Part shown: positions 20,632 through 29,781 of the stretch, one piece after another | Position numbering within the stretch: the stretch's first letter is position 1 | Layout: the number at the start of each line of letters is the position of its first letter | Assembly: GCF_013168275.1 (NCBI RefSeq) | Contig: NZ_AP019547.1 | Span: forward strand, 2,108,001-2,172,000 | Origin: Candidatus Nitrotoga sp. AM1P | GTDB taxonomy: Bacteria > Pseudomonadota > Gammaproteobacteria > Burkholderiales > Gallionellaceae | DNA length: 64,000 nucleotides | Reading direction: 5' to 3' | Program-made: the position numbers and the translations under genes | Notes under the pieces: generated by a model | Seen by the model: only the letters and a program-made list of their open reading frames with translations | Database searches by the model: none | What the model was told of the DNA's origin: nothing

Positions 20632-21981
20632 TTATTTTCCAATACAAAACCGGCTGAATATTTCACCGAGCAGATCATCCGCACTAAACTCACCTGTAAT
20701 AGAATTTAGTTCTTCGTGAGCAAGTCGCAGCTCTTCCGCGCAAAGTTCTGGACGTTTTATTTCCCCTGCGGCTCGCTGCAAATGGTCACGTGCGTTCAAT
20801 AATGCATGAACATGACGTTCGCGCGCCATAAAGATACCTGCCTCTTGATGCCAGCCAAGCAGTGACAGCAACTTATTACGCAACAACTCAAGCCCCTCGC
20901 CTGTTTTAGCCGACAGATAAATGTGACATTCGTCATTTTGTTCTTTTACATAGGCATGCTGAGCAAGCAAATCAACTTTATTAAAGACATATAATCGCGG
21001 AATTTCACACGGCAACTCGTCTAAAATTTTCTGATCATCTTCAGTCATTCCGTGGCTGGCATCCAACAGGATCAGGATAGCATCCGCTTTTTTTAGCGCT
21101 CCGTATGTACGCGCAATTCCCATCTGTTCCACGGCATCCTCTGCCTTGCGTAAGCCCGCCGTATCTATAATATGCAACGGCACACCCCCGATCTGAATAG
21201 ACCGGCTAATAAGATCGCGCGTAGTGCCTGGGAATTCACTCACTAACGCGACATCTTCCCCACTCAATCGGTTGAGTAAACTCGACTTTCCGACATTAGG
21301 CTGGCCGACCAGCACAATATGTGCACCCTCTCGCAACAGGCTCCCCTGTTGTGCCAAACTCAAAATCTTTTCTAATTCCGCATGCAATACGACTAATCGT
21401 GTATCACGTTGCGTCACATTTAAAGCATCAATCTCTTCTTCCGGAAAATCCAACATGGCTTCGATCAACATGCGTAACGCAACTAATCCGTTCACTAAGT
21501 GATAAATCGCCTGAGAAAACTCGCCTTGTAACGAACGCATGGCACTGCGCGCAGCCTGGCTAGTGGTCGCCGCTATCAGATCAGCTACGCTTTCTGCTTG
21601 TGCCAAATCAAGTTTTTCATTTAGGAATGCACGCTGTGTAAATTCGCCCGGCTGGGCGAGGCGAGCCCCAATTTCAAGACAGCGCTGTAACACCAATTGC
21701 AGTATGGCTGTGCCGCCGTGCCCTTGCAATTCTAAAATGTCTTCGCCGGTATAAGAGTGTGGGGCAGGAAAGAACAGAGCGATACCCTGATCTATAATTT
21801 GTTCTTGCGCATCCAGAAATGAAGCATACGTCGCACGCCGCGGTACAAGTACCTTTCCTAATAGAGCTTGTGCCCATAAGGAAAGGTCATGCCCGGACAA
21901 CCTGACCACGCCGATACCGCCTTGTCCATGAGGAGTAGCGATTGCGGCAATAACATCAGGTTTTAACAGCGCCTTTGACAT
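20632..21981 (-). CDS. mnmE: tRNA modification GTPase MnmE (TrmE)
   Basis: Partner of MnmG in wobble-uridine modification. The N-terminal folate-binding domain begins VIAAIATPHGQGGIGVVRLSG. The embedded G domain shows GQPNVGKSSLLNRL, DTAGLR and NKVD. The C-terminus ends FCIGK, carrying the catalytic cysteine of the family. The in-frame ATG at 21996 is possible, but MSKALLKPD at 21981 fits family length better (449 residues). Its start overlaps the yidC stop region by about 26 bases. Confidence 0.97.
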   Translation of the reverse strand: MSKALLKPDVIAAIATPHGQGGIGVVRLSGHDLSLWAQALLGKVLVPRRATYASFLDAQEQIIDQGIALFFPAPHSYTGEDILELQGHGGTAILQLVLQRCLEIGARLAQPGEFTQRAFLNEKLDLAQAESVADLIAATTSQAARSAMRSLQGEFSQAIYHLVNGLVALRMLIEAMLDFPEEEIDALNVTQRDTRLVVLHAELEKILSLAQQGSLLREGAHIVLVGQPNVGKSSLLNRLSGEDVALVSEFPGTTRDLISRSIQIGGVPLHIIDTAGLRKAEDAVEQMGIARTYGALKKADAILILLDASHGMTEDDQKILDELPCEIPRLYVFNKVDLLAQHAYVKEQNDECHIYLSAKTGEGLELLRNKLLSLLGWHQEAGIFMARERHVHALLNARDHLQRAAGEIKRPELCAEELRLAHEELNSITGEFSADDLLGEIFSRFCIGK

Positions 21982-23608
21982 CAGCCTCCAGTCCACGCGT
22001 GATATACCACTGTTGAACGATGGAAAGTATATTGTTTACAATGGAGTACAGCACCAACCCGGCCGGAAAGAAGAAAAATACCACGCTAAATACAATGGGC
22101 AACATTTTCATAAGCTTCGCTTGCAACGGATCCGGTGGAACAGGGTTTAACTTACTTTGGATTATCATGGAGGCTCCCATGATTAACGGTAAAACATAAT
22201 AGGGGTCAGGCACCGACAAATCGGTAATCCAGCCAAAAAACGGAGCATAACGTAATTCGACACTTGCAAGAATAGCCCAATACAGTGCGATAAATACTGG
22301 TATCTGAACCAACATTGGCAGACAACCCCCAAGCGGATTAATTTTTTCCGTCTTATACAATTCCATCATCGCTTTATGCAAGCGCTCACGGTCATCGCCA
22401 TATTGCTGCTTAATTTTCTCCAGCTTGGGGGCCACTACACGCATTTTTCCCATGGAGCGATAACTGGCCGCAGACAAGGGGAAAAATAATAATTTAATAA
22501 AAACAGTCAACAAGATAATAGCTATACCCCAGTTGGATACCCAGCCGTACAGGTAAGAAAGCAGCCAGAACAATGGGGTAGAAATGATTGTCAGCCAGCC
22601 ATAATCTACTGTTAACCCCAACCCTGGTGCGACTTCATCCAGTGAGGTTTGAGCTGGTCCAGCATAAAGTGGCACACTAATCTTTGCACTCTGGCCTGGT
22701 GCAATGGCTGCTACTGGTAAGATTACCCCTACTGAATAAAGGTCATTTTCCAAGTGCCTGGTATAAAACTCTCGCTGTATCTTATCCTTAGGTAACCATG
22801 CCGCTACAAAATAATGTTGCAACATCCCGGCCCAACCATTGTCAGCACTTTGAGAATGTTTAGCCTTGCCATTCTCAATATCAGGAAAACCCACTTTCTG
22901 AAATTTTTCTTTCTCTGTATAAATCGCAGTGCCCGTGTAAGTGGGCAAAAACATTGATGCACCTTCAGGTGTAGATTTGTCGCGCACCAACTGAAAATAA
23001 GTAGACGGGGAAAGTGGGCTGGTTCCAATGTTTTCGATTTCGTAGCCTACATCTATCAGGTAGCCATCTCGATGGAACACATAAAATTTAGTTACTTTTG
23101 CACCTACAACGTTAGTTGCAAATAATCGCACTTCAATTGTATTTTTACCTTCGGTTAATAGATATTCGTTAGCCTGGGCTGTGAATGTCGTATTGTGCGT
23201 GGGTAATCCAGTGCCAAGCAAACCCGTTTGGGCGATATAAGTGTGCGCTCCTTTATCTTGCAGTAAAACAAATGGTTTATTCTTGTTTTTGCTATCGCGC
23301 TGCTGTAAAAATTCCAAGCGACGCAAATCTCCTCCCACAGTATTAATTTCTGCGATTAGATAATCTGTTTTTACAATAATTTTTTGCCCAGTCTGAATTT
23401 TTTGTTGAGTAGCAACTGCAATTGTCTCTGGACTAGCCGTAGCTGTTATAGCGAGTGCATTATCTTTTGGCACGGCAATTTTTGGAACAGCAGCAGGCGC
23501 TGTTCGTACTATTGGTTGTTGAGTGCGCTGCCAACTATCCCACAACAATATGATTGATATTGAGAAAGCCAAAAAAAAGAACAGCCTAAACAGCTTGTGA
23601 AAATCCAT
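21956..23608 (-). CDS. yidC: Membrane protein insertase YidC
   Basis: Inserts and folds inner-membrane proteins, including the F0 subunits encoded in this window. The 550 residues show the gram-negative layout: an N-terminal signal-anchor (about residues 6-25), a large periplasmic domain (to about 350), and a cluster of five helices containing GWGIAIILLTVFIKLLFFPL and GGCLPMLVQIPVFIALYW. It sits in the conserved rpmH-rnpA-yidD-yidC-mnmE order. Confidence 0.98.
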   Translation of the reverse strand: MDFHKLFRLFFFLAFSISIILLWDSWQRTQQPIVRTAPAAVPKIAVPKDNALAITATASPETIAVATQQKIQTGQKIIVKTDYLIAEINTVGGDLRRLEFLQQRDSKNKNKPFVLLQDKGAHTYIAQTGLLGTGLPTHNTTFTAQANEYLLTEGKNTIEVRLFATNVVGAKVTKFYVFHRDGYLIDVGYEIENIGTSPLSPSTYFQLVRDKSTPEGASMFLPTYTGTAIYTEKEKFQKVGFPDIENGKAKHSQSADNGWAGMLQHYFVAAWLPKDKIQREFYTRHLENDLYSVGVILPVAAIAPGQSAKISVPLYAGPAQTSLDEVAPGLGLTVDYGWLTIISTPLFWLLSYLYGWVSNWGIAIILLTVFIKLLFFPLSAASYRSMGKMRVVAPKLEKIKQQYGDDRERLHKAMMELYKTEKINPLGGCLPMLVQIPVFIALYWAILASVELRYAPFFGWITDLSVPDPYYVLPLIMGASMIIQSKLNPVPPDPLQAKLMKMLPIVFSVVFFFFPAGLVLYSIVNNILSIVQQWYITRGLEADVKGAVKT

Positions 23609-23628
23609 ATGGTTTCGCCTATGTAAAT

Positions 23629-23841
23629 CTATGGGGCGGGATCATAACCACCTGGATTCCAGGGGTTGCAACGAATCACCCGCTTTATGCTTAACCAAGT
23701 ACCACACCAAGCACCATGTTTAGAGATAACCTCACGAGCATATTGAGAACAACTTGGAGTAAAACGACAGGTCGGAGGCATGAACGGGCTCAATAAATAT
23801 TGATATAAATCAATCAACCTGATTAAGAGTTGTCGCATCAC
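23629..23841 (-). CDS. yidD: Membrane protein insertion efficiency factor YidD
   Basis: A 70-residue protein with the family's cysteine-rich core [16 protein letters not shown] and the C-terminal [12 protein letters not shown]. It is thought to aid YidC-dependent insertion at the inner face of the membrane. It overlaps rnpA by 4 bases and lies 20 bases ahead of yidC. Confidence 0.96.
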
Positions 23842-24188
23842 ATACGGACAGATTGAAATAACTGTAATAACGCTAACCGTCCTTCAGCCGAAGTTTCAGA
23901 ATTAAATTGTCGCTTAGCCCGCACCACTACATCAACCGAATGTTCGACTGAGAAATTAAGTCTAAATATATTTCGAATCATGCGTTTTGCGAAATTTCTA
24001 GATACTGCCTTTGGCATGCTTCTTTTGCTGGCTATTACCCCAAGACGGGAATAACCATCCTCATTTTTTCGTATATAGACTGTAAACCATTTATTCGTCA
24101 AACAATCGGCACGAAGCGCCAACTCAAATTCTATCGGTTGCTTTAACCGGCGGCATGAAGGTAAAGTTTGTTTGGTATTAAACTGCAA
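23838..24188 (-). CDS. rnpA: Ribonuclease P protein component
   Basis: Protein subunit of RNase P, which trims tRNA 5' leaders. The RNR signature region is visible as [14 protein letters not shown] near residue 58. The best available start is TTG at 24188, which lies 11 bases inside the 3' end of rpmH, so the two genes overlap in different frames. The first dozen residues are not conserved in the family, and a start a little downstream cannot be excluded. Confidence 0.93.
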
Positions 24189-24383: not shown

Positions 24384-24583
24384 GCTTATTTTAATTATAA
24401 TGTAACAGGCATGATAAATTACCTATACTTTTAGCGTATGATTTATCTGAATTCAATTAGTCTAAAAATATGAGCAGTGGCTAATTTCAGAATTTCTCTC
24501 AATAGCTTATCTAACAGTAAATAATTTTTTTACCTTCCATGTAGTAGAATGTTCGAAGATTTTTTTGCATTGTCATTTTAAAA

Positions 24584-24617
24584 TTATGCGAGACAAAACA
24601 TTATGCGAGACAAAACA
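24584..24617 (+). repeat. 17-bp tandem duplication across the dnaA start codon
   Basis: The unit TTATGCGAGACAAAACA occurs twice back to back (24584-24600 and 24601-24617), followed by a partial third TTATG. Each copy carries an ATG (24586, 24603). Only the first is in frame with the body of DnaA as sequenced; see the dnaA entry. Confidence 0.95.
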
Positions 24618-25956
24618 TTATGGGATTCTTGTCTTCTTTTTTTTTGAAGGTACGCTTACCTCACAACAATTTAATTCTTGGATTAAACCTCTGAATTTTG
24701 AAATTCACGGCAATCAAATTACCTTGACCGCACCTAATAGTTTTACGTTAAAAATTGTACAGGAACGGTTTTTACCAGAAATTTCCAAGCAAGCAGAATT
24801 ATTCCTTTCATATCCACCAAATTTTGAGTTACGCATAGGAGAAAAACCTCTCAATTCATCTCCCTCAACATTACCCGTTGCTATAACAAATATTGTCCCA
24901 TCCGTATCACAACTCACACTCAATAAACACAAAAATCAAAATAAACTTAATCCTTTATTATCTTTCGAAAACTTTGTTACCGGTAAGGCAAATCAATTAG
25001 CTCATGCAGCAGCAATACAAGTTGCTGAAACGCCTGGCACCACATATAACCCATTATTTATTTACGGTGGAGTCGGATTAGGGAAAACTCATTTAATTCA
25101 AGCTATTGGGAATCATATTAAACTCGAAAATGCACAGGCAAAAATTTGCTATGTTCATGCTACAAATTATATTTCAGATGTTGTGCGTGCCTTTCAAACT
25201 AAGAAATTTGATGAATTCAAGCAGTTTTACAACTCATTAGATTTACTATTGATTGATGATATTCAATTCATTGCTGATAAAACTGGAACTCAGCAGGAAT
25301 TTTTCTATACTCTTAATTCATTGATTGATGGACATAAACAAGTTGTAATTACCTGCGACACCTTCCCTAAAGAAATTTCTGGAATGACGCCCCGACTTAC
25401 TTCTCGGTTCAGCTGGGGATTAACAGTAGCTGTTGAACCACCTGGTTTGGAAATGCGAGTAGCAATTTTGCTACAGAAAGCTGCTATTTCTAACAATCCT
25501 ATCAGTGAAGATGTTGCTTTTTTTATTGCCAAACATATTCGTTCTAATATCCGTGAATTAGAGGGTGCACTTAAACGCATCGATGCTTATTCTCGATTTC
25601 ACAAACGCACCATCTCTGTAGAACTTGCAAAGGAAGCACTTAAAGACTTACTAGCTTCTCAAAATAAACAGATTTCCATAGAAAATATTCAAAAAACTGT
25701 GGCTGATTTTTACCGTATCAAGGTTACTGATCTTCTTTCCAAAAAACGTACACGTTTAATTGCCAGACCTCGACAAATCGCAATGTGTTTAGCAAGAGAA
25801 TTAACACAATTAAGTTTGCCTGAAATTGGAACCGCTTTTGGAGGACGTGACCACACAACGGTTATGTATGCATGTAAAACCATTGAAAGCTTACGCAATC
25901 TGGATTCATCTCTTAATGCAGATTTTAATTTACTTAATCAAACATTACGAAATTAA
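24586..25956 (+). CDS. dnaA: Chromosomal replication initiator DnaA, with an altered N-terminus
   Basis: AAA+ initiator that opens oriC and loads DnaB. Walker A GGVGLGKTHLIQAIG, Walker B LLLIDDIQFI, and the domain IV DNA-binding block with GRDHTTVMYACKTI are all intact (456 residues). The oddity is domain I. From the first ATG the protein begins MRDKTLCETKHYGILVFFFF and then rejoins the family at EGTLTSQQFNSW. The expected LWDSCLLFFEGTL is encoded from the second ATG (24603), but that frame hits TGA right after the FF because the poly-T run (24637-24645) has nine Ts rather than eight. The 17-base duplication plus one T sums to 18, which keeps the first ATG in frame. No clear Shine-Dalgarno precedes either ATG. 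Confidence 0.93.
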   Translation: MRDKTLCETKHYGILVFFFFEGTLTSQQFNSWIKPLNFEIHGNQITLTAPNSFTLKIVQERFLPEISKQAELFLSYPPNFELRIGEKPLNSSPSTLPVAITNIVPSVSQLTLNKHKNQNKLNPLLSFENFVTGKANQLAHAAAIQVAETPGTTYNPLFIYGGVGLGKTHLIQAIGNHIKLENAQAKICYVHATNYISDVVRAFQTKKFDEFKQFYNSLDLLLIDDIQFIADKTGTQQEFFYTLNSLIDGHKQVVITCDTFPKEISGMTPRLTSRFSWGLTVAVEPPGLEMRVAILLQKAAISNNPISEDVAFFIAKHIRSNIRELEGALKRIDAYSRFHKRTISVELAKEALKDLLASQNKQISIENIQKTVADFYRIKVTDLLSKKRTRLIARPRQIAMCLARELTQLSLPEIGTAFGGRDHTTVMYACKTIESLRNLDSSLNADFNLLNQTLRN

Positions 25957-26172: not shown

Positions 26173-27279
26173 ATGTTTATTGAAAAGATTGAAAAAGACC
26201 ATTTATTAAATCCACTTCAGAAAATTATTGGAATAGTAGAACGTAAGCAACCTCTTCCTATACTGTCAAACGTACTAATTCAAAAAACTGGTTCAAATAT
26301 ACATTTTGTAGCGACTGATCTTGAAATTCAAATTACAACGCAACTTACTGATGTAAATCAAACAGGCTCGGATACAGCAATTACTGTAGCTGCTAAAAAA
26401 TTACAAGAAATCCTGAAGGTTTTACCTGAAGGAAGTAAAGTTACATTAGACGTTCATGAAAGTCGTCTTTTAGTAAAAGTAAATAAAAGTAAATTTACTT
26501 TACAAACTTTACCAGCTCAAGATTTTCCAAAAGTTTCGGAACAATTAGAGCAAGCCGTAAAAATTCAAATTGAACAGGATAAACTTAAAAAATTGTTGGG
26601 TATGGTTCAATATGCCATGGCACAACAAGATATTCGTTATTATTTAAATGGTGTTTTATTAGTTATTGATGGTCATTTTTTAAAACTAATAGCAACAGAT
26701 GGACATCGTCTCGCTTATGTTATTACTAGGCTTGATCAAGAATATCCCAAACGTGAAATTATTCTACCTAGAAAAACAGTTAATGAATTAATTAAACTTT
26801 TAGTTGAGACAGAAGAAAAAATAACATTTGAATTAGCTGAAAATCAAGTCCGTATGATTTTTTCAAATATTATTTTAATTTCTAAGGTAATTGATGGAAA
26901 ATTTCCAGATTATGAACGTGTTATTCCTAATTATACTAATCAACTTACATTAAATAGAATTGAAATATTACAAGCATTACAACGAGCAGCAATTTTATCT
27001 AATGAAAAATTCAGGGGTGTACGCTTTGTACTGACAGAAAAAAATCTGCGAATTATAAGTAATAATAGTGAGCAAGAAGAAGCGCAGGAGGATATGGAAA
27101 TAGACTATCAAGGAATTGCACTTGATGTTGGTTTCAACGTTAATTATTTAATGGATGGATTAAATAATGCTGCTACACAAACGGTCATATTCTCATTCGG
27201 TGATGCAAATAGTAGTATTTTAATTACTATTCCAGGTAATGAAGAATTTAAATATGTGGTTATGCCAATGCGTATTTAA
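26173..27279 (+). CDS. dnaN: DNA polymerase III sliding clamp, beta subunit
   Basis: Ring-shaped processivity clamp. The 368 residues cover the three repeated clamp domains, and the C-terminus KYVVMPMRI is the family's conserved end. ATG at 26173 sits behind an AAGGA-like site. It is the most AT-rich gene in the window: I counted 12 G/C of 60 in 26821-26880 and 20 of 60 in 26401-26460. Its codons strongly favour A or T in third position, unlike genes a few kb away. Confidence 0.98.
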   Translation: MFIEKIEKDHLLNPLQKIIGIVERKQPLPILSNVLIQKTGSNIHFVATDLEIQITTQLTDVNQTGSDTAITVAAKKLQEILKVLPEGSKVTLDVHESRLLVKVNKSKFTLQTLPAQDFPKVSEQLEQAVKIQIEQDKLKKLLGMVQYAMAQQDIRYYLNGVLLVIDGHFLKLIATDGHRLAYVITRLDQEYPKREIILPRKTVNELIKLLVETEEKITFELAENQVRMIFSNIILISKVIDGKFPDYERVIPNYTNQLTLNRIEILQALQRAAILSNEKFRGVRFVLTEKNLRIISNNSEQEEAQEDMEIDYQGIALDVGFNVNYLMDGLNNAATQTVIFSFGDANSSILITIPGNEEFKYVVMPMRI

Positions 27280-27369
27280 TAACATTTATACTTAATCGCC
27301 TTCTAAAACTTAACTTTAGTATTTAAAAATATCATTTGGAATAAGTAATATTTATAAATGCATTCTCAA

Positions 27370-27385
27370 TGTTTCACGTGAAACA
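27370..27385. promoter_or_regulatory. parS: parS centromere site (perfect) upstream of gyrB
   Basis: TGTTTCACGTGAAACA is a perfect 16-base palindrome and an exact match to the consensus ParB-binding site. It lies 15 bases upstream of the gyrB start, between dnaN and gyrB, about 1.3 kb from oriC. Confidence 0.96.
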
Positions 27386-27390
27386 AATGA

Positions 27391-29781
<2,391 letters not shown>

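Follow-up and report, generated by a model that had tools for sequence, protein, structure and literature searches.

A 17-bp duplication and a nine-T run at the start of dnaA in Candidatus Nitrotoga sp. AM1P and their predicted effect on the DnaA N-terminus

The genome of the nitrite-oxidising bacterium Candidatus Nitrotoga sp. AM1P is a single contig of 3.008 Mb, and its dnaA lies on the forward strand at positions 24586..25956 of the 64,000-nucleotide stretch analysed here (the window). The reading frame from the first ATG of the gene (ATG1) encodes 456 amino acids with an altered N-terminus, MRDKTLCETKHYGILVFFFFEG, and Pfam matches place both the AAA+ ATPase domain (PF00308, 214.9 bits) and the C-terminal DNA-binding domain (PF08299, 108.4 bits) in its product. 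On the reverse strand at 21956-24188 are genes that we take, by eye from their translations, to be yidC, yidD and rnpA, and the forward-strand genes at 26173-29781 are, judged in the same way, presumably dnaN and gyrB; these flanks look like a classical dnaA neighbourhood. The nearest named relatives of the gene belong to Candidatus Nitrotoga. In a search of the AM1P genome for DnaA, the only match besides the full one was weak and partial (23.9 bits), and a second intact dnaA was rejected on this basis. Scanning for promoters gave 3 sites, compared with 2.6 in shuffled sequences.

The start of the gene overlaps an exact tandem stretch of 40 bases (24583..24622, + strand) with a 17-bp period and 2.35 units, in which copies of TTATGCGAGACAAAACA occupy 24584-24600 and 24601-24617 and the hexamer ATTATG occurs at 24583, 24600 and 24617. 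A run of nine Ts (T9) follows on the same strand at 24637..24645. The original prediction had reported both features and they are present, with the two copies matching exactly; it had also described the frame from 24586 as open through dnaA and that from the second ATG, at 24603 (ATG2), as ending early, and the translations are as claimed. The ATG2 frame spans 24603..24647 (+), reads MRDKTLWDSCLLFF and stops at TGA, and would supply a normal N-terminus if the run held eight Ts (T8). A third ATG (ATG3, 24620..24622, +), which the original prediction had not mentioned, stands where relatives also have an ATG; it lies in the third frame and enters DnaA at run lengths of seven and ten. The predicted N-terminal peptides are MRDKTLCETK from ATG1 and TLWDSCLLFFEGTLTSQQF from ATG2. 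T9 is the sole run of at least nine within the window, and A/T runs of nine occur four times in 400 kb of the AM1P genome, so that T9 alone is not rare. The 17-bp repeat exceeds chance. Exact tandem units of 10–60 bases gave 18 rows in a scripted search of 800 kb of the genome, among which units of at least 15 bases occupy 5 distinct places when counted by hand. Beyond the window, an array of tandem 33-bp units was observed at G000:C1:1981167-1981500.

Because the ATGs are spaced 17 and 34 bases, ATG1, ATG2 and ATG3 occupy three frames. DnaA is open at run lengths of 6, 7, 8, 9, 10 and 11 from ATG1, ATG3, ATG2, ATG1, ATG3 and ATG2, respectively, so that at each of these lengths a single one of the three reads into the protein. 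Without the duplication, when only ATG2 and ATG3 are there, a run of nine would leave no ATG in frame with DnaA. The duplication and the additional T had been singled out as a compensated pair (+17 plus +1 = 18), but this compensation is less remarkable than it appeared, since it is a consequence of having an ATG in each of the three frames, with any length from 6 to 11 readable. The match of the ATG1 frame is a by-product of the duplication geometry and therefore no independent proof that T9 is real.

Comparison with the dnaA start regions of same-genus relatives indicates which state came first. Among 18 such relatives searched, 17 had a match; in 15 (L004-L018) it was DnaA itself, and in the other 2 only distant proteins matched. 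The 17-bp unit is single-copy in 15 of the 15 same-genus start regions read, where the T-run measures eight in 10, seven in 4 and is interrupted in 1; because all are single-copy and none has nine, the duplication and T9 are, on this comparison, both derived. Other Candidatus Nitrotoga (for example HW29, SPKER and 1052) share with AM1P the same gene and, where checked, the same ATTATG pair, and their DnaA proteins are 96–97% identical to the typed normal form; unlike AM1P, they have one 17-bp copy, T8 and a normal N-terminus. In each of the 6 relatives checked there are two ATTATG hexamers at a spacing of 17 bp, and ordinary slippage between them would explain the duplication. Across the wider family, a first pass yielded 78 distinct start regions, with 6 loci missed, and a looser pattern yielded 81, missing L101 and L018, the latter already read earlier; among these 81 distinct start regions, a tandem unit of 10–40 bases or a run of nine is found in AM1P only. 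The dnaA 5′ end of one family member, L067 (VBWD01000016.1, a Gallionellaceae MAG), looks frame-broken, being ~4 bases short after MSAQGL compared with L059, and this is either real or a MAG error.

A protein search with DnaA residues 1–60 matched 226 proteins, 120 of which were listed. Among the matches listed, the ATG1 form (P0001) occurs on 1 contig, the AM1P genome itself (3,008,303 bases), and the W..C pattern is found in 119 of the 119 other proteins. One of these, P0002, has the normal N-terminus and, from its own residue 15 through to the C-terminus, the same sequence as P0001; it is encoded on 10 contigs, the longest of 22,243 bases. Letter for letter, P0002 is what ATG2 would encode if the run were one T shorter, in agreement with the earlier expectation that eight Ts would restore the family N-terminus from ATG2; the further expectation that the ATG1 product lacks the W..C residues was likewise borne out. 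Because P0002 is otherwise identical to P0001 and lies on 10 contigs, the normal N-terminus, as judged from these protein sequences, is present in this lineage or in one very close to it. The DNA of the 10 contigs was sought among viral contigs and was not found there. The altered N-terminus is, among the proteins listed, private to AM1P and looks like a private accident.

These protein data, which fit a genuine double change as well as a one-base error, bear directly on the possibility that the duplication is real and the ninth T arose from an error in the consensus, in which case DnaA would be made from ATG2 with a normal N-terminus and ATG1 would be a harmless leader remnant. We consider this reading a serious contender, although its probability falls clearly short of even. 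The identity of P0002, on its 10 contigs, to the ATG2 frame minus one T speaks for it, as do the predominance of T8 in the genus (10/15) and the place of T9 among the longest runs sampled, where errors are likeliest. Run lengths were weighed against those of a complete relative (G001) over 607 kb of aligned sequence, with runs classed by the longer of the two compared lengths and counted as coding when they fell within a G001 ORF that starts with ATG and has 120 aa or more; this definition may admit a few false 5′ ends. Coding runs were equal to those of G001 in 926 of 928 cases at length 5, in 285 of 288 at length 6 and in 139 of 141 at lengths of at least 7, the exceptions in the last class being dnaA and an A6/A7 run near 1985847. 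At lengths of at least 8, 29 of 30 coding runs were equal and the exception was dnaA; the agreement of the other 29 argues against an error in the consensus. Similarly, coding runs of at least 7 were equal to those of a second relative, G004, in 47 of 48 cases, the exception again being dnaA, and the control comparison of G004 with G001 gave 53 equal of 53. Non-coding runs of at least 7 were equal to those of G001 in 36 of 50 cases (14 differ), which reflects natural variation. The change from A6 to A7 near 1985847 (G000:C1, outside the window) possibly lies in a false 5′ end.

Frame continuity pointed the same way. Four frame switches relative to G001 were detected in 291 genes, none of them at runs of at least 5, by a test that is blind to changes lying wholly within about the first twelve residues, such as that of dnaA; run in the opposite direction, the comparison gave 6 rows among 279 genes. 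Frame-switch candidates at runs numbered 14 in AM1P and 18 and 20 in two relatives, so that AM1P has no excess, and the absence of both an excess and of switches at runs counts against a consensus error. The homopolymer spectrum of 400 kb also resembled that of two relatives. A generally error-prone assembly was accordingly rejected, given this spectrum, the candidate counts and the fidelity of the long coding runs. A C8/G8 frame-switch candidate at 1801432, in what we take by eye to be the mreC/mreD junction, was discarded, as the surrounding 600 bases align to G001 without a gap. AM1P mutS and mutL were searched for internal stops, and both are uninterrupted; a mutator was rejected on this basis. 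Because the other long coding runs agree with relatives, a random error in dnaA alone would be a coincidence, and T9 is, in our judgement, somewhat more likely to be real than to be an error.

The predicted effect on the protein lies in domain I. The DnaA_N profile (65 positions) matches the ATG1 form at 37.0 bits over positions 14-62 and the normal form at 47.1 bits over positions 2-62, both above the cut-off of 24.6 bits; the ATG1 form has lost profile positions 2-13, and its domain I no longer includes a complete helix 1 with the Trp. The AlphaFold models were poor overall (mean pLDDT 57.2 and 52.3). Domain I of the normal form was fairly confident, with helix 1 at residues 4-17, and in the low-confidence model of the ATG1 form residues 1-17 had pLDDT values below 50, with a helix only at 14-20. 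In the ATG1 form, helix 1 of domain I is thus probably largely replaced by CETKHYGILVFFFF, and the first helix damaged. PMC5448010 describes helix 1 residues of E. coli DnaA, including Trp6, as serving dimerisation, with Trp6 mutants failing in DnaB loading, and describes the H. pylori protein as being without that Trp. The Trp is absent in 21 of 77 other family start regions, in one (L067) via the frame break, and because of these losses some change is taken to be tolerated. In a group of family members (L044-L048, L051, L053, L055, L058-L060, L062-L064, L068, L070-L072, L076 and L100), LSGSC or LSVCY replaces LW..C, a natural loss of the residue equivalent to E. coli Trp6.

With slightly better than even confidence, we explain the locus as an ordinary dnaA that underwent two slippage-type changes, a 17-bp duplication and then an extension from T8 to T9, seen in AM1P only. 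A tandem duplication between two ATTATG repeats would have put an ATG in each frame and would have been harmless at T8, when ATG2 gives the normal protein. The length of the run would thereby have become non-lethal, and the run could then have grown from eight to nine, which is the order of events that we infer. DnaA would now be made mainly from ATG1, with helix 1 replaced, and a minority of normal DnaA may arise from ATG2 via transcripts one U shorter. Reporters with T7-T8 runs in E. coli undergo transcriptional slippage, and PMC6260861 puts rescue through deletion by the E. coli RNA polymerase at ~10% for T8; because that polymerase slips at T8, slippage may be expected at AM1P dnaA too, and the T9 gene would still yield some U8 transcripts. 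Such transcripts, read from ATG2, would give normal DnaA. Perhaps a +1 ribosomal shift at UUU-UGA from ATG2 also contributes normal protein, a conjecture that draws on the resemblance of UUU before UGA to the release factor 2 +1 shift site (PMC5009743). Thermus dnaX, with an A9 run, is like AM1P dnaA in having a nine-base A/T run inside the coding sequence, and selection against A/T runs starts at nine in a large share of 108 genomes, according to PMC1088944. Three points weigh against this explanation, namely that 10 contigs encode the normal N-terminus, as P0002, and the AM1P assembly alone the altered one, that the open ATG1 frame, as a by-product of geometry, proves nothing for T9, and that the altered form loses a helix important in E. 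coli for dimerisation and DnaB loading (PMC5448010).

A more ambitious interpretation, which we hold to be improbable, is that the start of this essential initiator gene is now a three-frame cassette in which every T-run length yields DnaA with a differing N-terminus, so that changes in domain I would be reversible and non-lethal and the forms mixed by slippage. Less probable still is a selected switch, in which the T-run would often change length, toggle normal and altered DnaA and thereby tune initiation. Nine Ts are short for phase variation. The layout itself, in which a slippery run is preceded by an ATG in each of three frames, is of the phase-variable type and favours a switch, as does the occurrence of both N-termini on otherwise identical proteins. 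According to PMC4019658, the repeat of H. influenzae lic1A is preceded by 3 start codons in 2 frames, and lic1A/lic2A and AM1P dnaA are alike in having start codons in more than one frame before a slippery repeat whose length picks the start. However, lic1A/lic2A carry a long tetranucleotide (CAAT) array in a surface-sugar gene, whereas dnaA, an essential initiator gene, has a run of nine bases, and in one genome, that of AM1P. The start cassette occurs in 1 of 81 distinct start regions, that of AM1P, and mutS and mutL are uninterrupted, both of which argue against a selected switch; the slippage-prone toggle of the initiator N-terminus offered in the original prediction accordingly found no support. 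Among the papers listed in a literature search on dnaA and phase variation, none evidently described such a switch, and a search for a duplicated or frame-shifted dnaA start gave no report. That the duplication and the ninth T are both assembly artefacts is the least credible reading: no relative shows either of them and, among the matches listed, the altered form occupies one contig, but base errors do not usually take the form of a 17-bp tandem copy within a contig, the ATTATG repeats give the duplication a natural origin, and other exact tandem units of at least 15 bases are few, with 5 such places in 800 kb.

Should T9 be an error, the locus is a caution on reading initiator genes from single assemblies. 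If it is real, the locus shows how duplicating a short start-codon segment allows a homopolymer to vary inside an essential gene, and a free-living bacterium lives with helix 1 of its DnaA largely replaced, which would be a natural test of whether this helix is dispensable.
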